A stretch of DNA of 64,000 nucleotides from Clostridia bacterium. GTDB lineage: Bacteria > Bacillota > Clostridia > Lachnospirales > Anaerotignaceae. The translations under genes were made by a program, and so were the position numbers. The notes below the pieces were generated by a model that was not told the origin of the DNA, ran no database searches, and was given only the letters and a program-made list of their open reading frames with translations. Position 1 is the first letter of the stretch; each line of letters opens with the position of its first letter. The DNA lies in assembly GCA_022651385.1 (NCBI GenBank), contig JALCQR010000001.1, positions 1 to 64,000 of the forward strand, written 5' to 3'. Positions 16,492 through 27,103 of the stretch are shown piece after piece.

Positions 16492-16511
16492 CTTAATTTT
16501 TTTTATTTTGG

Positions 16512-16538
16512 GCCTCCTGTTATTACAGGAGGCTTTTT
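16512..16538 (+). terminator. Terminator after yjbQ
   Basis: Nine-base perfect arms GCCTCCTGT and ACAGGAGGC with a tetraloop-like TATT and a T run. Confidence 0.93.
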
Positions 16539-16767: not shown

Positions 16768-18264
16768 GTGAAAAAAATGTTATGGCTGCCCATAGGCTTA
16801 ATTTGTGCGTCAGTTGTTTTTTCCGGCTGCGGCTCAAAGCAGGCCGGTGCAGGCACAAAAGGACAGATGCCCGGAGCAAAACAGCAGTCAAGTGCTACTG
16901 CTGTTGAGACATGTACTGCCGAAAAAAAACTGATTCAGGATACAGCAACGTTTACAGGCACCATAAATCCTTATGATACTGTTAATGTAATCAGTACGCA
17001 GACTTCAGAAAAAGTTACAAGTGTAAATTTTGACGTTGGTGACAAAGTTAAAGCAGGAGATGTGCTTTTTACTCTTGATACTACGGATATTCAAAATAAT
17101 ATTGACGTTTTGAAAGCAAATATTGCTTCTGCCGATGCGAACATAAAAAGTGCGCAGACATCTTTAGAGCAGGTCAAAGGCTCAAGCAGCAAAAGTCAGA
17201 TAGAGACTTATAAAAACAGTATTTCAACTGCAAAACGAAACCTTGAATCTGCCAAATCGGACCTTGAAACGTCCAAATCCGATTATGATTCGGCTCAGTC
17301 TTTATTTAAACTTGGAGGTGTGTCACAATATGACCTCAATAACGACAAAATAAAATATGAAAATGCGCAAAGAAGCGTAGACGCTGCTCAGCAGACTCTT
17401 GATAATGCAAATTATCAATATAATTTGTATGTAAATGAAACTCTTAAGGAGAATACTGAAAAAGCTCAAGACAGCCTTAATTCCGCTGTGGCTTCCAAAA
17501 ATTCAACGGCGGCTCAGATGAAATCTTATGAAAAACAGCTTTCAGATTGTACTGTTACATCACCTATAAGCGGAACTGTTCTTCAACGAAACGCGACTGT
17601 TGGCTCGGTTTTGGGCTCAGGTACACCTTTTGTTATAGTTAATCTTGATACTGTAAAAGTAAAAGTAAATGTTGCGGAAGATATGATAAACAAAATAAAA
17701 GTGGGCGATACAGTAAAGATAAAAGTTGCTTCATATTCTGATAAAGAATTTGAAGGACATATTTCAACAATTGCTCCTGGTGCTGATGACGGAACTTATC
17801 CTGTTGAAATAGATATTCCCAACAGTGACGGGCTTTTAAAAAGCGGAATGTTTGCTCAGGTTACATTTGCTAAAGAGTCAGGCGACAGTGATATAGTAAT
17901 TGACCGTGACGCTTTGCTTACAACTACCGACGGAAACTATGTATTTATTGTAGAAGACGGAAAGGCAAAGAAGGTAGATGTAACTACGGGTATAGATAAC
18001 GGTGATGAAATACAGATACTTAGCGGTCTTAATGAGGGCGACTAAGTTGTATACAGCGGCAATACATATCTTAACGACGGAGATTCGGTAAACGTTGTAA
18101 CCGGCGTGTCAGACAGCAATTCAGACAGTACTTCGGCAGATAAAAGCGCTGATTCTTCCGCAGAACCTAAATCTTCTTCCAAAGACTTGAAAACTCAAAG
18201 CGACAATGAATCTCAAAGTGATACGATTAAGAAAACTGCTCCTGAAAGTTCAAAGGGGGAGTAA
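16768..18264 (+). pseudogene. RND efflux adaptor (membrane fusion) lipoprotein, interrupted by in-frame TAA
   Basis: The frame encodes a membrane-fusion protein: lipobox FSGC at about residues 17-20, a biotinyl-lipoyl half motif, a long coiled-coil hairpin at about 105-250, the second lipoyl half (TSPISGTVLQRNATVGS), and a beta-barrel domain. A TAA at 18043-18045 ends it after 425 residues, just after the GLNEGD turn. The same frame then continues open for 72 codons (VVYSGNTYLNDGDSV, then a Ser/Asp-rich tail) to a TAA at 18262, three bases before the RND pump gene. The normal reading would be GLNEGD-x-VVYSG, so one codon has become a stop. Most of the adaptor is intact and may still work, or the stop may be read through. 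GTG start behind AGGAGGT. Confidence 0.85.
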
Positions 18265-18267
18265 AGA

Positions 18268-21200
18268 ATGATTAATCTTTCTATAAGACGTCCTGTAACA
18301 ACAGTAATGATTACGCTTATAGTTTTTATTGCAGGCATTGTTTCTTATAATGCTCTTGACCTTTCTTTCCTGCCTTCAACGGATTTACCAATGGTTATGG
18401 TATCGACAACATATACAGGCTGCGGTCCTGAGGAAATAGAGGAGCTTGTTACAAAGCCCATTGAAGAGCAGCTTGCAACGCTTTCGGACGTTGACACAAT
18501 AACATCAACTTCGTCACTTGGCTCGTCAAGTGTAATGGTACAATTTAATGACGGAGTTGTTGTTAATGACAAAATGAATGATATCCGTGATAAAATAGAC
18601 CAAGTGTCACGTCAGCTTCCTGATGATGCCAAAACTCCTTCCATTATGAAAATGGATATGAATCAGGAAAGCATGTACGTATCTATAACAAGTGACAAAT
18701 ATAACTCGGATACTCTTTATAACTTTATAAAAAATAACATTAAAACTAAATTTGAGGGAATTAGCGGTGTTGCTTCCGTTGATATGATGGGCGGCACGCA
18801 ATATGAAATAGATATAACCGTTGACCCTGTAAAACTGCAAAATTACGGTATTACAATAAGCACGATTTCCAGAGCGCTTAGTGCCGAAAATACAAATGCA
18901 CCGGCTGGCTCCATCCAGCAGGGAAGCACAGACATGGATATACGTGCTGTTGGAAAGTTCGGCTCTATAGATGATATTAAAAACTTGCCTATAACCACAG
19001 GTAACGGCAATGCTATATGTGTAAAAGATGTGGCGACTGTTGCAAAAAAACCTGTTGACCAGTCTATGATTGCTCTTATAAACGGCAAGGAAGGCGTTAT
19101 AATGTCTATTGACAAACAGTCAGACGCCAATATTGTTACAGTAAGCGATAATATAAATGAAACTGTAAACGAAATAATGCAGGAATATCCAAGCCTTGAT
19201 ATTCAGCTTATGTCTACAACTGCCGACTATATTAAGACATCTCTTTCAAACGTAACGAAAACAGCTATTGAAAGTGCTTTAATAGCTGTATTGATACTTC
19301 TTATTTTCTTACGTGACTGGAAATCGTCTTTAATAATAGGTATTTCAATACCTACATCAATTATGGCAACATTTGCTCTCATGTATGTTTCGGGAATGTC
19401 GATGAATACAATATCAATGGGTGCTGTAGTTATTGCAATAGGTATGCTTGTCGATAACTCGGTTGTTGTGCTTGAAAATATTAATACGTTCCACCAGCGA
19501 GGCTTTTCACCTAAAGAAGCGGCGCTTAAAGGAACTCAGGAAGTGGCTATGCCTGTAATGGCTTCAACACTTACAACCGTTGCAGTTTTTCTTCCTCTTA
19601 CATTTGTGTCTGGCATGATGGGAACGTACCTCAAACAGCTTGGATACGTAATATGCTTTGCTCTTATTGCGTCATATATTGTATCTATTACATTTGTGCC
19701 TATGGCTTCGGCTCTTTTGCTTTCGTCGAGCGACAAGAAGATAAAGAGAAAGAAAACTATTTTTACTTATATAGGCGGACTTGTGCTGTTCTTCCTTACA
19801 GGCCTTGATAATTTTTACAGAAAAATACTCAAAGCTTCTTTAAGACACAGAATAATAACAATCATAATAGTTTTGGCTGTATTTTTAGGTTCTCTGTCAA
19901 CACTGAAATTCATGGGTATGGATCTTATGAGCAACATTGATCAAGGCGTATGCTCGGTTTCTATAGAGCTTCCTAACGGCACTGTATTTGAAAAAAGTGA
20001 AGAAATGCTCTATCAGGCACTTGATGCTATAGGCGAAATTCCTGAAAAGAAAAACATGTTTGCAATGGTAAACGGTTCGGGCTCATGTCAGATAATCTAT
20101 AACCTTGTTGACAAAGAAGAAAGAACCCGTTCTACAGATGATATATGTGCTTATATAAGAAAGAAAGTTACAAACATAGCCGGAGCAAAAATTACAGTTT
20201 CTGCTTCGTCAGGCGCAATGGGTTCAATGGGTGGTGCCAACGGTTTTTCGCTTGAAATAAAAGGCGACGATACCGCTACTTTACGTAAAGTCGGCGACGA
20301 CTGCATATCGCTTATTTCTCAGATACCGGGAATGTATGACCTTGAAAACTCAATGGATGACGCCGTCCCTGAAACGGATGTTACCATAGACAGAGCAAAG
20401 GCCTCAAAGTACGGCGTTACCACAACAAGTATTGCTTCTACTATTTCTGCAGCAGTAAGCGGTGTTAAGTCTACAACATTTAAAGAAAACGGTAATGAAC
20501 TTGACATAAAAATAAAATATGCCAAAGACAGTGTAAAGTATCTTGATGATATTAAAAAACTTACTGTTACTACTTCGTCTGGAGCAGTAATACCGATAAC
20601 TAATGTATGCGATTTTGATGTAGGCGAAAGCGCTGTTTCAATAAACCGTGAGGACCAACACAGATACATAGATATAAGTGGCTCATATGAGCAGAGCTAC
20701 GGCTATACTTCAACGCAGATACAATCGCTTATTGAGCAAAAACTTGCAAATTATGTATTCCCTGAAGGATGCAGCTACTCATTCGGCGGCCAAATGAAAA
20801 TGCTTAAACAGGTTTCATCAAACCTTATTATAGTTCTTATCGTAGCCATACTTTTGGTTTATATGATAATGGCTTCGCAGTTTGAATCTCTTATATATCC
20901 TTTTATAATAATGTTTTCAATGCCTATTTCACTTACAGGCGGTTTGCTTGGACTGTTTATTACAGGCCAGAGCGTTACAATGACGTCTCTTATGGGCATG
21001 ATTATGCTTGTAGGAATGGTTGTTAACAACGCCATCGTTCTTGTTGACTATACAAACCAGCTTAGATTTATACATGGCAAGGATTACATGGAGGCATTGT
21101 TGGAAGCAGGCCCGGCCAGACTCCGTCCTATACTTATGACTGTTCTTACAACGGTTATCGGACTTTTGCCAATGGCAGTTGCAACATCTTCAGGTATGGA

Positions 21201-21384
21201 AATGGTGCAGCCTCTTGGCATAACCGTTATTTTCGGCCTTTCTCTTTCAACATTAGTAACGCTTGTGTTTATACCTGTACTGTATTCTTATGTAACAGAA
21301 TTTGAAATGTTTATCAAAAAGAAAATACATAACTGGCAGGATAAGCACTATGAATATTATGATGACGATGTAAAAGACAATTAA
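18268..21384 (+). CDS. RND-family efflux pump (AcrB/SwrC-like)
   Basis: A 1038-residue protein with the full RND architecture: TM1 near residue 12, a large extracytoplasmic domain, TM2-6, then a second repeat of the same plan after about residue 530. The proton-relay Asp of TM4 is seen in AIGMLVDNSVVVLENI and the matching segment of the second half is GMVVNNAIVLVDYTNQ. It begins three bases after the end of the interrupted adaptor frame, and its binding site overlaps that frame's end. As in other Firmicutes there is no outer-membrane channel. Likely exports drugs, lipids or peptides across the membrane. Confidence 0.95.
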   Translation: MINLSIRRPVTTVMITLIVFIAGIVSYNALDLSFLPSTDLPMVMVSTTYTGCGPEEIEELVTKPIEEQLATLSDVDTITSTSSLGSSSVMVQFNDGVVVNDKMNDIRDKIDQVSRQLPDDAKTPSIMKMDMNQESMYVSITSDKYNSDTLYNFIKNNIKTKFEGISGVASVDMMGGTQYEIDITVDPVKLQNYGITISTISRALSAENTNAPAGSIQQGSTDMDIRAVGKFGSIDDIKNLPITTGNGNAICVKDVATVAKKPVDQSMIALINGKEGVIMSIDKQSDANIVTVSDNINETVNEIMQEYPSLDIQLMSTTADYIKTSLSNVTKTAIESALIAVLILLIFLRDWKSSLIIGISIPTSIMATFALMYVSGMSMNTISMGAVVIAIGMLVDNSVVVLENINTFHQRGFSPKEAALKGTQEVAMPVMASTLTTVAVFLPLTFVSGMMGTYLKQLGYVICFALIASYIVSITFVPMASALLLSSSDKKIKRKKTIFTYIGGLVLFFLTGLDNFYRKILKASLRHRIITIIIVLAVFLGSLSTLKFMGMDLMSNIDQGVCSVSIELPNGTVFEKSEEMLYQALDAIGEIPEKKNMFAMVNGSGSCQIIYNLVDKEERTRSTDDICAYIRKKVTNIAGAKITVSASSGAMGSMGGANGFSLEIKGDDTATLRKVGDDCISLISQIPGMYDLENSMDDAVPETDVTIDRAKASKYGVTTTSIASTISAAVSGVKSTTFKENGNELDIKIKYAKDSVKYLDDIKKLTVTTSSGAVIPITNVCDFDVGESAVSINREDQHRYIDISGSYEQSYGYTSTQIQSLIEQKLANYVFPEGCSYSFGGQMKMLKQVSSNLIIVLIVAILLVYMIMASQFESLIYPFIIMFSMPISLTGGLLGLFITGQSVTMTSLMGMIMLVGMVVNNAIVLVDYTNQLRFIHGKDYMEALLEAGPARLRPILMTVLTTVIGLLPMAVATSSGMEMVQPLGITVIFGLSLSTLVTLVFIPVLYSYVTEFEMFIKKKIHNWQDKHYEYYDDDVKDN

Positions 21385-21431
21385 TTAAAAAGTTCGTTTT
21401 TTTTGTTAATTATGATATAATTAAAACAGAT

Positions 21432-21467
21432 AAAAGGCGGCTGTGGCATATTTTCAGCCGCCTTTTG
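21432..21467 (+). terminator. Terminator of the RND operon
   Basis: Twelve-base perfect arms AAAAGGCGGCTG and CAGCCGCCTTTT with an 11-base loop. The T run is short but the arms are strong. Confidence 0.85.
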
Positions 21468-21500
21468 TAAAATATTTTATGATGGCAAGGGGGCTTTAAA

Positions 21501-22133
21501 ATGAAAAATTATGTTATAACTATAGGCAGACAATTTGGGAGCAATGGGCACGAAATTGGAAAAAGACTTGCCAAAAGACTTGAAATACCGTTTTATGACA
21601 GGGATATTATTACAAAAGCGGCTTCAGAAAGCAATTATGACGAGGAAACGTTTAAAAAGCTTGATGAAAATAGAAGTACAAGTTTTTTGTTCTCAGTTGC
21701 AATGAATATTTTCCCTTATACCAGTAAAATGGAAAATATTGACCAGCTTTCAATATCTGACAAACTTTTTACAATCCAAAAAAAAGTCATTATTGAAATG
21801 GCGGAAAAGAGCCCTTGCGTTATAGTAGGCAGATGCAGCAACTTTATTTTAAAAGAAAAGTTTAACTGTATAAACATTTTTGTATACGGTGATAGGCATG
21901 AAAGAATTGAAAAAATAGCTAAAAACGAGAACATTCCGTTTTTAAAATCTGAAGAAATTGTTTCGAAAGTAGACAAAAGACGTGCTGCATATTACAATTA
22001 TTATACAGGAGAAAAATGGGGAGCTGTGGAAAACTATGATGTTTGCATAAGCAGTTCCGTTATAGGACTTGACGGGTGTGTGGATGCTCTTGAGCGTTAT
22101 ACTAAGGCAAGGCTTGCTGACGAAATAAACTAA
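21501..22133 (+). CDS. Cytidylate kinase-like family protein
   Basis: A 210-residue P-loop protein of the cytidylate-kinase-2 family. The P loop is the unusual ITIGRQFGSNGHEIGK, followed by IPFYDRDII and a lid-type segment DKRRAAYYNYYTGEKWG. These proteins are distinct from Cmk and their substrate is generally unproven. It lies 33 bases before the response-regulator gene with no terminator between, so it may lead the signalling operon. Confidence 0.88.
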   Translation: MKNYVITIGRQFGSNGHEIGKRLAKRLEIPFYDRDIITKAASESNYDEETFKKLDENRSTSFLFSVAMNIFPYTSKMENIDQLSISDKLFTIQKKVIIEMAEKSPCVIVGRCSNFILKEKFNCINIFVYGDRHERIEKIAKNENIPFLKSEEIVSKVDKRRAAYYNYYTGEKWGAVENYDVCISSSVIGLDGCVDALERYTKARLADEIN

Positions 22134-22166: not shown

Positions 22167-22865
22167 ATGGAAAAGAAAAATAAAATATTGGTTACAGACG
22201 ACAATTCTGAAATAAGAGAAGTTATTAAAATTCTTCTTCAGGGAGAGGGATATGATGTTATTGAGGCAGGCGACGGCAAAGAAGCAATAGCACTTCTCGA
22301 TGACAGCGTTGATCTTATAATACTTGACATAATGATGCCGGGTATGGACGGTTTCAGATGCTGTGCCGAAATACGAAAAAAATCTAATGTACCGATACTT
22401 TTTTTGACTGCTAAAACAGAGGATTCAGATAAAACCATGGGCTTTACTCTTGGCGGCGACGATTATCTGGTTAAGCCTTTTTCTTATACCGAAATGCTTG
22501 CCAGAGTAAAAGCTCTTTTAAGAAGGTACTATGTTTATCAGGGAAAAGAAAAAAATGATGAAAACAGTATAATAGATTTGGGAGGACTTGTGATAGACAG
22601 GAAGCTTAGCTCCGTTACGGTTGACGGAAAAGAAGTTGCCCTTTCCGATTTGGAATATAATATACTGCTTTTAATGGCTTCTCACCGGAAAAAAATATTT
22701 TCGGCTCAAAATCTTTATGAATCGCTTTGGAATGAACCGTATTATTATACTGCAAACAACACTATTATGGTACACATAAGAAAGCTGAGGACAAAAATAG
22801 AAAAAGATCCTCAGAATCCGAAATATATCAAGACTATATGGGGACGGGGATACAGGATTGAATAA
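22167..22865 (+). CDS. OmpR-family response regulator
   Basis: A 232-residue regulator. The receiver domain (1-120) has the acidic pocket DDNSE, phosphoacceptor Asp54 in LILDIMMPGMDG, and the Lys of GGDDYLVKPFSY. The C-terminal winged helix (about 135-230) ends with the standard IKTIWGRGYRIE. ATG at 22167 follows AAGGAG. It overlaps the kinase gene by eight bases and opens a tight operon: regulator, kinase, alarmone synthetase, regulator, kinase. Confidence 0.95.
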   Translation: MEKKNKILVTDDNSEIREVIKILLQGEGYDVIEAGDGKEAIALLDDSVDLIILDIMMPGMDGFRCCAEIRKKSNVPILFLTAKTEDSDKTMGFTLGGDDYLVKPFSYTEMLARVKALLRRYYVYQGKEKNDENSIIDLGGLVIDRKLSSVTVDGKEVALSDLEYNILLLMASHRKKIFSAQNLYESLWNEPYYYTANNTIMVHIRKLRTKIEKDPQNPKYIKTIWGRGYRIE

Positions 22866-24204
22866 TAATGATAAGATTAACAAAAAAAGATTTTGGCAGA
22901 CAAAACTCGGTGCAGAGCTGATTTTGACTACGCTCATATCGCTTTTAGCAGCTGTGGGCGTTTTTTTTGTATTGTCGTTTGTTGAGTTTAAAATAGTCGT
23001 ACATTTTATGCAGGATGAGTCTTTTGTTGACAAAAATACTGCATTTGTTATTGAAAAACTTCAAAAATACATTGACGACAACAATATTTCAAGCATGGAA
23101 ATGTATAAGGTTAACGACTGGGTGCGAAAAAAAAGAGGGGTTTCTCTTGTTATAATTGATAATTCAAGAGTTATTTATGATTCCACACTTATAAGACCGT
23201 TTGATGTTGGTGGTGATGACAACGATCCTTTCCATAAAAGCAAAGACTCGAAAGGCCAAAGAAAGATATATGAGCTGAAATTTACCGATAAAACACTTGA
23301 TGCTATGATGATAGTGTTTTTTGGCTATCATTTTAGCGATATTGCCTCATATATTAAGATAATTTTATCTTCGGGTGTGTTTTCACTGATAATTATTTTG
23401 CTTATAAAACGAAAGACGGATTATATAAATCAGCTTGCCGATGAAATAAGTATTCTTGAAGGAGGAGACTTAGAGTACAGCATTACTGTAAAAGGCGTTG
23501 ATGAAATTACATATCTTGCAAGAAATATTGAGGACATGAGAAAGGCGTTTATTGAGAGAATTAAAAATGAAAGAGAAGTTATAAATGCCAGCAGCAGTCT
23601 TGTTACAGCTATGAGCCATGACCTTAGAACACCGCTTACGGTTCTTATGGGATATATGGATATACTTGACAATAACAAAAACATAAGCGATGAGGACAGA
23701 CAGCTTTTTATTTCAAAAAGCAGGAAAAAGGCATATCAGATTAAACAGCTTTCCGACAAACTTTTTGAGTATTTTCTTGCGGTTGAGCCGTATGATGATA
23801 AAATGGATAAGGAATACTATACTGTAGATGTAATAAATGAAATAGCAGAGGATTATATTTTTACCCTTAATGAAAAAGGTTATGATATCGAATACAAAAA
23901 TACTGCCGAAAATGTTAAACTGTATATTGATGTTCAGCTTATACACAGAGTGTTTGACAATATATTTTCAAACATATTAAAGTATTCCGATAAAGACAGA
24001 AAGATACTTATACAGACGGAAACATACAATAACAATCTGAAATTTTCGGCTAAAAATTATATAAATAAAAATAATGCAAAAGTTGAAAGCAGCCATATCG
24101 GCATTGAGGTGTGCAGAAGAATAATGTCAAGACACGACGGAGTGTTTGATATTTTTGATGATGGAGAGTGTTTTGAGGCGGTTATTATATTCAAAACGGA
24201 GTGA
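22858..24204 (+). CDS. Sensor histidine kinase with degenerate ATPase domain
   Basis: A 448-residue membrane kinase: TM1 at about 20-45, an extracytoplasmic sensor to about 155, TM2 at about 160-182, a HAMP-like linker, the phosphoacceptor His254 in MSHDLRTPLTVL, then a short ATPase domain. The N box is FDNIFSNILKYSD, but the G1 motif DxGxG is missing (FSAKNYINKNN in its place) and G2 reads SSHIGIEVCRRIM. ATP use may therefore be altered, although some Firmicute kinases vary here. TTG start overlapping the regulator stop; partner regulator is the gene before it. Confidence 0.88.
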   Translation: MNNNDKINKKRFWQTKLGAELILTTLISLLAAVGVFFVLSFVEFKIVVHFMQDESFVDKNTAFVIEKLQKYIDDNNISSMEMYKVNDWVRKKRGVSLVIIDNSRVIYDSTLIRPFDVGGDDNDPFHKSKDSKGQRKIYELKFTDKTLDAMMIVFFGYHFSDIASYIKIILSSGVFSLIIILLIKRKTDYINQLADEISILEGGDLEYSITVKGVDEITYLARNIEDMRKAFIERIKNEREVINASSSLVTAMSHDLRTPLTVLMGYMDILDNNKNISDEDRQLFISKSRKKAYQIKQLSDKLFEYFLAVEPYDDKMDKEYYTVDVINEIAEDYIFTLNEKGYDIEYKNTAENVKLYIDVQLIHRVFDNIFSNILKYSDKDRKILIQTETYNNNLKFSAKNYINKNNAKVESSHIGIEVCRRIMSRHDGVFDIFDDGECFEAVIIFKTE

Positions 24205-24209
24205 TTTTT

Positions 24210-24851
24210 ATGGATGATGAGAAAATTGTGGCAAACTATGGGTTTTACGGCGAAAGTCTGATTCTTCTTGAGGGAGCTATTACCGAAGTCATAACTCGTA
24301 TAGACATTATACGCAGATATATAAAAATTAAAGGTTTTAGAGATCCTATAGAGCATGTAAAAACCAGAATAAAATCTGAGGAAAGCATGAAGGAAAAACT
24401 TATCAGAAAGGGACTTGCTCCTACATGTGAAAATGCGGTTACAAAAGTTTATGACGCAGCCGGAATAAGAGTTATATGCACGTTTGTAGACGATGTATAC
24501 AGAATTGTGGAACTTTTAAAATCACAGCAGGATATTAAAATTATAGAAGAAAAAGACTATATATCAAATCCTAAGCCAAGCGGATACAGAAGTTTTCATC
24601 TTATAATAAAAGTGCCGATACATCTTCCAAAAGGTATTAGATATGTTAATGCGGAAATCCAAATACGAACAATAGCTATGGACTGCTGGGCAAGTCTTGA
24701 GCATGAAATGCGATATAAAAAAGATGTACCGAATACTGAATTGATTGCCGGAGAACTCAAAAGATGCGCAGACGAGATTGCTTCAACAGATTTAACACTT
24801 CAGGCAATTAGGGATATGATTGATTCAGAAGGAACAGGAGGACATAAATGA
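24210..24851 (+). CDS. Small alarmone synthetase (GTP pyrophosphokinase, RelQ/YjbM-like)
   Basis: A 213-residue single-domain RelA/SpoT synthetase without the HD hydrolase, TGS or ACT domains. Conserved elements are the nucleotide-binding DAAGIRVICTFVDDVYRI, KPSGYRSFHLII, and the GTP-binding EIQIRTIAMDCWASLEHEM. It makes (p)ppGpp or pGpp from ATP and GDP/GTP in the cytoplasm. ATG at 24210 is preferred because GGAG ends eight bases before it; a GTG at 24201 sits inside that site. It lies between the two two-component systems and overlaps the second regulator by ATGA, so it is translated with them. Confidence 0.92.
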   Translation: MDDEKIVANYGFYGESLILLEGAITEVITRIDIIRRYIKIKGFRDPIEHVKTRIKSEESMKEKLIRKGLAPTCENAVTKVYDAAGIRVICTFVDDVYRIVELLKSQQDIKIIEEKDYISNPKPSGYRSFHLIIKVPIHLPKGIRYVNAEIQIRTIAMDCWASLEHEMRYKKDVPNTELIAGELKRCADEIASTDLTLQAIRDMIDSEGTGGHK

Positions 24852-25510
24852 AACTTTTGCTTGCTGAAGATGAAAAAGAACTTTCAAATGCTCTTTGTGC
24901 CATACTTAAACACAGCGGATATGAGATAAATGCTGCATATGACGGAAAATCAGCTTTGGATTTAGCTCTTTCAAATGAATATGACGTTATGATACTTGAT
25001 ATAATGATGCCTAAGATGAATGGCCTTGAGGTACTCGAAAATATACGTGCAAACAACATAGATACTCCTGTGCTGCTGCTTACAGCAAAAGCTCAGGCAG
25101 AAGATAAAATAACAGGCCTTGATGCCGGTGCCGATGACTATCTGGCTAAGCCGTTTAATATGGGTGAACTGCTTGCCCGTTTAAGAGCTATGACAAGGCG
25201 AAGTGAGAAAAAAACAGAAAATTCGGATATTATTTGCGGCAACAGCAAACTTGACAGAACAACGTTTGAATTATCAGGCCCCAAGGCGTCTTTTAGGCTT
25301 GCAAAACAGGAATTTCAGCTTTTGGATATTCTTATTAAGAACAAAAATAAGAAAACAGAGGCTTTAAAAACGGCAAAATTAATTTGGGGTGAAAAAGCTA
25401 AGGAAGACGTGATAGTAATTTACATAGCGTATCTTAGAAAAAAACTTGAGTCGGCCGGTTCTAATCTGATTATTTCAGACACTAAGGGAGGATACATATT
25501 GGAGGGATAA
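24848..25510 (+). CDS. OmpR-family response regulator (second)
   Basis: A 220-residue regulator with acidic pocket AEDEKE, phosphoacceptor Asp51 in MILDIMMPKMNG, and DDYLAKPF, followed by a winged-helix domain ending SDTKGGYILEG. It overlaps the alarmone synthetase stop by four bases (ATGA) and is one base from the next kinase gene. Probably phosphorylated by that kinase. Confidence 0.95.
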   Translation: MKLLLAEDEKELSNALCAILKHSGYEINAAYDGKSALDLALSNEYDVMILDIMMPKMNGLEVLENIRANNIDTPVLLLTAKAQAEDKITGLDAGADDYLAKPFNMGELLARLRAMTRRSEKKTENSDIICGNSKLDRTTFELSGPKASFRLAKQEFQLLDILIKNKNKKTEALKTAKLIWGEKAKEDVIVIYIAYLRKKLESAGSNLIISDTKGGYILEG

Positions 25511-25511
25511 A

Positions 25512-26798
25512 ATGGTTAAAAGACTTAAAAGAAAATTTGTAATGACTTCAATGCTGTCTCTTCTTGCTGTGCTCGTTTTCTTATCCTGTACGATTAATTT
25601 TCTTTTTGATTTGCAGGTTAATAAAGGAGCCGATGTGATTTTAACTCTTATTTCTGAAAATAACGGCAAATTTCCGGAATTTGAGCCGAATATGGAAGTG
25701 AAACTGAAAAACCATGAAATTAATGTTCAGGGAAAAAATGACGGCACCATCAATGTTAATATGAAAAACAGCAACAGCAATATAAACATTACCGCTGAAA
25801 CAAAATTTGAAACAAGATACTTTACTCTTTTTACCGACAAAAATGGAGATGTATCACAAATGGACCTGACTTCTGTTGCTGCTATTGATAGGGAAAATGC
25901 AGAGAGCTATGCTAAAGCGGTCTTGAATTCCGGAAAAGAAAGCGGTATTTTCAAGTATTACCGTTTTATGATAACAGATACAGATAATGGAAAAATGATT
26001 GTGTTTCTTGACTGCCATGACCGTATATCCACAAAAAAACAGGTGATGGCTTTAAGTTTAGTTGTAGGTGCTCTTTGTCTTGCCATAATGTTTGTGATTG
26101 TTTCGCTTGTTTCGGGAAAAGTTGTTAAACAAACAGCGGAAGCAATAGAGAGCCAAAAGCAGTTTATAACTGATGCAAGCCACGAAATAAAGACGCCGCT
26201 TGCTATAATTTCCGCAAATGCGGATGTACTTGAGCTTGAGCACGGCAGAAGCGAATGGCTTGACAGTATAAGAAACCAAACAACACGCCTTGGAGAACTT
26301 GTTAAAGTACTGCTTACACTGTCAAAAATGAGTGAGGAACAAAGTGTGGTGTTCAGGGAGTTTAACCTGTCAAAAACAGCGACGGAGGCATTTGAGCCTT
26401 TTTATGTGCTTGCAAACAGCAAAGGAAAGAAAACTCAGACCGATATACAGGAAGGCATAATGTATAACGGTGACGAGGAATATATTAAACAAATGGTTTC
26501 AATACTTGCAGATAATGCTGTGAAATATGCGTCTGAAAACGGAACTATTAAACTTACATTGAAGAAAACTGCGTTAAACAAAATAGAACTGTCTGTTTTT
26601 AATACGTGTGATCCTATGTCACAGGAACAGCTTTACAGGCTTTTTGATAGGTTCTATAGGGCTGACAGCTCAAGAAACCGTGCTACAGGAGGATATGGAA
26701 TAGGTCTTTCTATCGCAAAAGCTATTGTTGAAAAACACAGGGGAACAATAAAGGCGGAAAATATTGACGGCGGAGTTATATTTACCGCTAAATTATAG
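25512..26798 (+). CDS. Sensor histidine kinase (second)
   Basis: A 428-residue membrane kinase: TM1 at about 14-34, an extracytoplasmic domain of about 140 residues rich in Asn and Lys (MKNSNSNINI), TM2 at about 178-200, phosphoacceptor His224 in TDASHEIKTPLAII, N box ADNAVKYASENG, and an intact GGYGIGLSIAKAIV G2 box with the FDRFYRADSSR segment before it. Unlike the first kinase its ATPase domain looks complete. Last gene of the operon. Confidence 0.94.
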   Translation: MVKRLKRKFVMTSMLSLLAVLVFLSCTINFLFDLQVNKGADVILTLISENNGKFPEFEPNMEVKLKNHEINVQGKNDGTINVNMKNSNSNINITAETKFETRYFTLFTDKNGDVSQMDLTSVAAIDRENAESYAKAVLNSGKESGIFKYYRFMITDTDNGKMIVFLDCHDRISTKKQVMALSLVVGALCLAIMFVIVSLVSGKVVKQTAEAIESQKQFITDASHEIKTPLAIISANADVLELEHGRSEWLDSIRNQTTRLGELVKVLLTLSKMSEEQSVVFREFNLSKTATEAFEPFYVLANSKGKKTQTDIQEGIMYNGDEEYIKQMVSILADNAVKYASENGTIKLTLKKTALNKIELSVFNTCDPMSQEQLYRLFDRFYRADSSRNRATGGYGIGLSIAKAIVEKHRGTIKAENIDGGVIFTAKL

Positions 26799-27103
26799 AA
26801 AATAATTAGCCATTTTTGTAAACTTATAAGGTTTGGGAAACATAGATATTCCAACTTTCCGCATATCTTTGTGGTAATAAAAGGCTTGCAGGGTTGGCGG
26901 GACAGAGTCATGGTTTTTATTACTTTTAAGCGCATATTTAAAGGGGGAGGGGGAGCTTTTTGCAAGTTAAAAAGTTCTCCAGAATTATATATAGGTTTTT
27001 GATAATCTAAAGCAATGACATTTTTCGTCATTGTTTTTTGTATTTCTTTACTTTTATGTAAAATAGTATTATGATTTATGAATAGGAATTAAGGGGGAAT
27101 CAT
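26799..27103 (+). repeat. Intergenic region with dispersed repeat copy 1 (26878-26985)
   Basis: The part at 26878-26985 (from AATAAAAGGCTTGCAGGGTT to AAAAGTTCTCC) is the reverse complement of DNA at about 34880-34988, with about 100 bases in near alignment: shared blocks include ATGCGCTTAAAAG, GACTCTGTCCC and AAGCCTTT. A simple terminator, CAATGAC-GTCATTG with six T (27013-27039), lies between it and the next gene. No gene is seen. Confidence 0.75.

Follow-up and report, generated by a model that had tools for sequence, protein, structure and literature searches.

The stretch of DNA analysed here, called the window in the following, comprises 64,000 nucleotides (positions 1 to 64,000, forward strand) of contig JALCQR010000001.1 from the Clostridia bacterium assembly GCA_022651385.1. 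Between positions 22167 and 26798 it carries five genes on the + strand, which encode a response regulator (RR1), a histidine kinase (HK1), a small alarmone synthetase (SAS), a second response regulator (RR2) and a second histidine kinase (HK2). With a probability of about 0.8 we read this locus as two modules which are separate elsewhere and lie end to end here: a relPRS-type cassette, SAS-RR2-HK2, under the control of its own two-component system (TCS) HK2-RR2, perhaps read through from the preceding TCS RR1-HK1. Content, order and position of the five genes, as described in an earlier note on this DNA, were confirmed by gene calls and Pfam. The tight coupling claimed there was found as well, with an overlap of 8 bases between RR1 and HK1, one of 4 bases between SAS and RR2, and a gap of a single base between RR2 and HK2. 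HK1 starts with TTG at 22858. Two start options exist for the SAS, GTG at 24201 with a 4-base overlap with HK1, or ATG at 24210 with a 5-base gap and GGAG ahead, the latter being the likely start.

The cassette is recognized from the relatives of the SAS. In a FastTree tree of 182 rows (the window SAS, five references and 176 loci, 18 of them from the clade and 158 others) the window SAS falls into a clade of 19 with a support of 1.0, whose members come from Clostridia and Bacilli. All 19 possess a co-oriented RR2-type regulator at a distance of at most two genes from the SAS. Among the 158 loci outside the clade only six have a co-oriented match to a response regulator (RR) or histidine kinase (HK) within this distance (L087, L092 and L121, and weaker in L093, L131 and L150; L numbers denote loci). 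The association of SAS and RR2 thus goes beyond chance. That count is based on matches to RR1, RR2, HK1 or HK2 of at least 17 bits on the same strand, so that other kinds of TCS are missed, and loci cut at contig ends were scored as being without a TCS. Five further loci outside the clade (L119, L122, L163, L178 and L268) show an RR or HK match on the opposite strand only.

The order SAS-RR-HK is present in 14 of the 19 clade members, including the window and the two Bacilli loci L284 and L285; L113 follows it apart from an open reading frame (ORF) of 107 aa between SAS and RR. Two members (L114, and L116, whose RR is just a 110-aa piece) show SAS-RR with no HK found, and in L115 the cassette meets the contig end. 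The order is reversed to RR-HK-SAS in the remaining two members, L072 and L077. The SAS is thus the first cassette gene in 16 of the 18 other clade members. For 15 of these 16 the preceding gene is visible: it lies on the opposite strand in seven, is co-oriented at a distance of at least 67 bases in six, and is co-oriented 2 or 11 bases away in two.

The RR of the Bacilli locus L285 has its best match in the window genome in RR2 (178.7 bits, next 113.4) and its HK in HK2 (138.7 bits, next 68.6), the comparison being made in one direction, from L285 against the whole window genome. Because of these best matches and the clade of 19, SAS-RR2-HK2 can be regarded as a cassette common to Clostridia and Bacilli, and by its gene order it is of the relPRS type. 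An IS110-type transposase gene (L284:3310-4455) is located 410 bases ahead of the cassette in the other Bacilli locus.

The sampling behind these counts was as follows. In 97 of 98 genomes (the window's own included) a match to the SAS was present; the contig scan covered the best 80 matches, and the 60 best-scoring loci were read with their flanks. In most of these relatives the neighbours gave no RR or HK match. The class-wide search covered 391 genomes, 12 of which (own included) had matches with E values up to 1e-58. For the class to which a Gemella genome belongs, 179 of 250 genomes had matches with E up to 1e-32, and 30 loci as well as 12 longer stretches were read; the Bacilli loci L255-L283 comprised at most 1.5 kb of flank per side. 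Nine duplicate proteins, further identical ones and the shorter copies L254, L256 and L278 were left out of the tree, likewise L124, L141, L147, L152 and L156, for which ORF calling gave no SAS frame. The loci L316-L335 of family f5, which are discussed below, stand outside the tree.

By sequence criteria the window SAS is of the RelP type. In the 216-aa protein RelA_SpoT was the sole domain found by Pfam, and there was no hydrolase domain. Among relatives with a solved structure YwaC scored highest (168 bits), followed by the RelP chains 6ewz (159) and 6fgj (157), then 3l9d (132) and 2be3 (120), both of which we take to be RelQ-type chains, and YjbM (RelQ, 115). The only SAS model of NCBIfam that matched was YjbM, with 166.9 against a cut-off of 320. 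When the tree is rooted on RelQ, the four RelQ rows form their own group apart from the window SAS, which is placed together with S. aureus RelP in a group of 130 (support 0.69) and with S. aureus RelP and YwaC in a group of 161 (support 0.93). The protein has the G-loop proline of RelP (KDYISNPKPSGYRS), and all aligned residues match R78, K80, S84, K88, R91, D107, R112, Y151, E174 and H190 of S. aureus RelP; the proline and the list of ATP-site residues are given in the consulted part of PMC5794853. The genome of 2.6 Mb contains three RelA_SpoT matches, namely a long Rel-type frame, the window SAS and a RelQ-like SAS. Anaerotignum lactatifermentans and Tyzzerella sp. An114 belong to the same family, as judged from identical SAS proteins in the locus pairs L162/L061 and L126/L042.

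The author of the earlier note knew of no described system that links two-component signalling to the stringent response, but an operon consisting of an alarmone synthetase and a TCS has been published. In S. mutans relP is located in an operon with the relRS TCS (PMC4963387, in part) and relP and RelRS are co-transcribed (PMC7545056, in part). According to passages of PMC7674665, relP is said to be activated by RelRS, and oxidative stressors are proposed as the signal; passages of PMC6563777 place relPRS downstream of rcrRPQ and state that mutations in either affect the other. The window cassette shares with relPRS the RelP synthetase within a TCS operon (the gene order relP-relR-relS being taken from the operon name) and the location downstream of exporter genes, there rcrPQ. 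It differs in the clostridial host and in the TCS of RND-pump type in front. The link between TCS and alarmone synthesis is therefore of a known kind, since relPRS has been published, and on this streptococcal precedent HK2 and RR2 probably control the transcription of the cassette. RelP-type genes under WalKR or VraRS are described for B. subtilis (RelP/YwaC, SasA) and S. aureus (RelP) in the parts of the literature consulted. These have in common with the window a RelP-type gene under TCS control. WalKR and VraRS are presumably general cell-wall TCSs encoded away from the SAS gene, unlike the situation in the window.

A limited search of the open-licence literature (titles and abstract openings) found no publication that deals with SAS-TCS cassettes of Clostridia, and the consulted part of PMC3153485 does not mention 'two-component' or 'histidine kinase'. 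The combination of RelP and TCS published for streptococci extends to clostridial lineages, where it forms one clade with cassettes of Bacilli. Since the cassette there is a dedicated one, alarmone levels in these lineages could be tied to a specific sensor.

RR1 and HK1 have a different background. The search for HK1 relatives covered 58 genomes of the family, eight of which (among them the window's own) gave matches with E up to 1e-25, and 392 genomes of the order, where 48 (again counting the own one) gave matches with E up to 1e-45. The 28 RR1-HK1 relative loci read with flanks consist of 20 from the order search and eight from the window family; 26 weaker order matches were left out. In 15 of the 28, which are the 15 best-scoring ones, an RND gene lies upstream on the same side, and the best tblastn pieces of these RND genes are 49-60% identical to the RND protein of the window. 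The RRs at these loci share 60-69% identity with RR1. RND and RR are separated by a gene of 354-397 aa in 14 of these 15 loci, the two such genes that were scanned (L223, L226) being OEP, and a co-oriented gene ahead of RND is visible in 14 (in L235 with 163 aa, at the contig edge). No RND gene is visible in the other 13 loci. Judged from these relatives, RR1-HK1 belongs to the RND-efflux kind of TCS, with HK1 as the presumed partner of RR1. The window fits in so far as RR1-HK1 are closest to regulators and kinases that follow RND genes, and HlyD-type and RND genes are found upstream; it differs as a terminator-like hairpin and a Cytidylate_kin2 gene take the place of the 354-397 aa gene, and the SAS cassette follows.

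None of the 28 RR1-HK1 relatives has a clade-type SAS beside it, within what the contigs show. One locus, L039, has a SAS of stand-alone type about 2.5 kb away, which points away from the TCS. Conversely, 17 of the 18 other clade members can be judged at their front, L117 being the exception, and in none of these 17 do RR1-HK1 precede the SAS. Among the 19 clade members all five genes occur in this order a single time, in the window genome. We regard it as the junction of two modules, since the relatives of RR1-HK1 sit elsewhere and the SAS of the clade have fronts without them, and on present evidence it was rejected as a conserved module.

Several statements of the earlier note have to be revised accordingly. 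The data do not support a synthetase locked between two TCSs or a fixed order. The tie between TCS and synthetase is genuine for RR2-HK2, where it is clade-wide, and RR1-HK1 is a neighbour seen once; the link itself is real and of a known kind. A synthetase standing by itself in relatives had been named in the note as part of what would refute its reading. This is the situation in most RelP-type SAS examined, but not in the window clade.

HK1 was also described in the earlier note as degenerate and as a possible modulator. When HK1 is aligned with 28 relatives, all 28 have the H-box His and 27 of 27 the N-box Asn; HK1 itself keeps both boxes. The lid stretch, which is present in HK2, is missing in HK1 and in all 27 relatives that reach this region (L108 keeps two residues). 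Because 27 relatives share the missing lid, it is a family trait rather than a sign of decay, and HK1 as a decayed kinase was rejected; from its sequence it belongs to a family of short-lid kinases. The HATPase_c domain scores below the Pfam cut-off both in HK1 and in the relative L223. In RR1 the receiver residues Asp, Thr and Lys are retained. The suggestion that both kinases sense outside signals is plausible, because HK1 and HK2 each have two hydrophobic spans with an intervening loop. A TCS of the VanRS type of vancomycin resistance was considered and rejected (NCBIfam VanR 255.5 against a cut-off of 350, VanS 92.9 against 400). No HK1 relatives were confirmed in viral contigs.

From these data the following course of events can be proposed. 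HK2 would sense a signal from outside the membrane and phosphorylate RR2, and RR2 would act on transcription, its own operon included. More of the RelP-type synthetase would then result in more (p)ppGpp, and growth would slow down under envelope or redox stress. The TCS RR1-HK1 would have come to lie directly ahead of this cassette and may, by read-through, provide it with a second input, in which way it may have an effect on the alarmone level. Five points bear on the transcription of the locus. First, a single transcript from Cytidylate_kin2 through RR1, HK1, SAS and RR2 to HK2 appears likely from the arrangement of the genes. Second, HK1 and SAS, with a 4-base overlap or a 5-base gap, leave no space between them that could hold a promoter. 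Third, the hairpin scan, which allowed loops of 3-8 bases, detected no terminator-like site on the + strand from RR1 through to the end of HK2. Fourth, the best promoter-like site within 150 bases ahead of the window SAS fits in 9 of 12 positions, which was equalled by 57 of 300 shuffles. Fifth, we put the odds that the SAS is also transcribed through RR1-HK1 by read-through at about even. If so, a pump-type TCS would be coupled to alarmone synthesis, and efflux-type signals would be linked to slow growth.

A number of observations weigh against the arrangement of two modules as proposed. Promoter-like sites with 10 of 12 positions exist at 23954-23983, inside HK1, and at 24792-24820, ahead of RR2, so that more than one transcript may cover the five genes. 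In L113 and L115 co-oriented genes end 2 and 11 bases ahead of the SAS, respectively, so that the SAS is not always the head of its transcript. A promoter of its own ahead of the SAS is clearly above shuffles in four of 16 relatives (L243, L245, L247 and L248) and not in the other 12. A shared RR2-binding repeat upstream of the SAS was not found; in several loci repeats exceed a mononucleotide shuffle, with no sequence in common, and the search detected no repeat upstream of the SAS in the window. The Bacilli side of the comparison consists of L284 and L285, with no named streptococcal relPRS sequence included. As for the pump, the hairpin at 21430-21468 parts the pump genes from the RR1-HK1 transcript, and no RND gene is visible in any of the eight RR1-HK1 loci of the window family, though in three (L098, L107 and L108) the contig is cut a short way upstream.

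Among the alternatives, chance neighbourhood stands best, and we consider it possible, at odds somewhat below even. RR1-HK1 would then merely precede the cassette and respond to their own signals, with no functional link to it. The single occurrence of the five-gene order and the several contexts of the RR1-HK1 relatives agree with this, and the promoter-like site inside HK1 could serve the SAS alone. The lacking promoter room between HK1 and SAS and the weak best site ahead of the SAS speak against it. Unlikely in our estimation is a single evolved unit of the genus, in which two kinases would report two outside signals to one synthetase. It would explain the tight overlaps and the stretch from RR1 to the end of HK2 without a terminator-like site, but not the single occurrence of the order in the clade, nor the fact that the RR1-HK1 relatives are located elsewhere, with RND genes ahead of 15 of the 28; the genomes sampled include no second species of the window's genus.

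Control by contact between TCS proteins and synthetase has to be considered in view of a family of the same order, f5. Here the SAS of L092 is matched with E up to 1e-45 in 26 of 38 genomes, and loci of 22 of these genomes (20 loci plus L087 and L092) were read with flanks. A receiver-only RR, an HK and a SAS follow each other in 18 of these 22 loci (L316, L317, L320-L329, L331-L334, L087 and L092; in L323 and L332 the cassette was seen by tblastn). In L319 RR and SAS are retained and the HK in between is reduced to a remnant of 57 aa, and L318, L330 and L335 carry the SAS with no TCS. The 17 aligned receivers have a length of 126-159 aa; phospho-Asp and Lys are retained throughout, and so is the Thr except in L322, which has Ser. 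In the two analysed with Pfam a receiver domain and no DNA-binding domain was found. Since the adjoining TCS has no DNA-binding output, the sequences suggest that the f5 SAS is controlled by contact, hinting at a non-transcriptional type of regulation in these cassettes.

To our knowledge, no alarmone synthetase is known that is gated directly by a TCS, and a limited search of the same kind as above revealed no paper on a receiver-only RR together with a SAS. The f5 cassettes offer a direct test case for such gating by contact. An improbable variant has the TCS proteins setting (p)ppGpp by touching the synthetase. RR2-HK2 of the window, perhaps joined by RR1-HK1, would do this besides their transcriptional role, and in f5 the receiver-only regulator would do it alone. 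Contact instead of transcription in the window is more improbable still, as, despite the 18 of 22 f5 loci with an RR devoid of a DNA-binding domain, RR1 and RR2 each carry such a domain and the f5 SAS included in the tree (L087, L092) are placed apart from the window clade.

The features of the two modules and of the neighbouring region are compiled in the table.

Features of the five-gene locus and its surroundings in the window.
Feature	Position	Strand	Description
Terminator-like hairpin	16510-16535	.	from the hairpin scan
HlyD-type membrane-fusion gene of RND pump	16768-18045	+	Pfam HlyD_D23, E 2.7e-27
RND efflux permease	18268-21384	+	1038 aa; Pfam ACR_tran, E 5.2e-252
Terminator-like hairpin	21430-21468	.	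14 pairs, T-rich tail, -22.8 kcal/mol; between RND gene and Cytidylate_kin2 gene
Cytidylate_kin2 gene	21501-22133	+	Pfam PF13189, E 1.2e-55; ends 33 bases upstream of RR1
RR1	22167-22865	+	OmpR-type response regulator, pump-linked kind; Pfam Response_reg and Trans_reg_C
HK1	22858-24204	+	membrane histidine kinase, ATP domain with short lid; HAMP and HisKA pass the cut-off, HATPase_c below
SAS	24201-24851	+	RelP-type small (p)ppGpp synthetase; RelA_SpoT, E 8.6e-34
RR2	24848-25510	+	OmpR-type response regulator of the SAS cassette; Pfam
HK2	25512-26798	+	membrane histidine kinase of the SAS cassette; Pfam
Terminator-like hairpin	27009-27037	.	downstream of HK2; -11.2 kcal/mol

The hairpin at 21430-21468 has a loop of 11 bases and came from folding instead of the scan. 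It sits just 3' of a TATAAT-like box and could be a terminator or an attenuator. The frame of the membrane-fusion gene is closed by a TAA at 18043-18045, yet it continues open as a tail to just before the start of the RND gene, and the final part of the protein may be missing.

The G1 box of histidine kinases usually has an Asp at the position where HK2 has an Asn, and the same Asn occurs in eight other cassette kinases compared. Outside the relPRS clade a separate SAS-RR-HK arrangement is found in L121 (8917-11908), behind a gene with a Beta-lactamase2 domain which overlaps the start of the SAS. In L150 the gene of a 1047-aa protein stops 7 bases ahead of a non-clade SAS; the protein has a receiver-like match of 77 bits and is perhaps a hybrid kinase adjoining the SAS.

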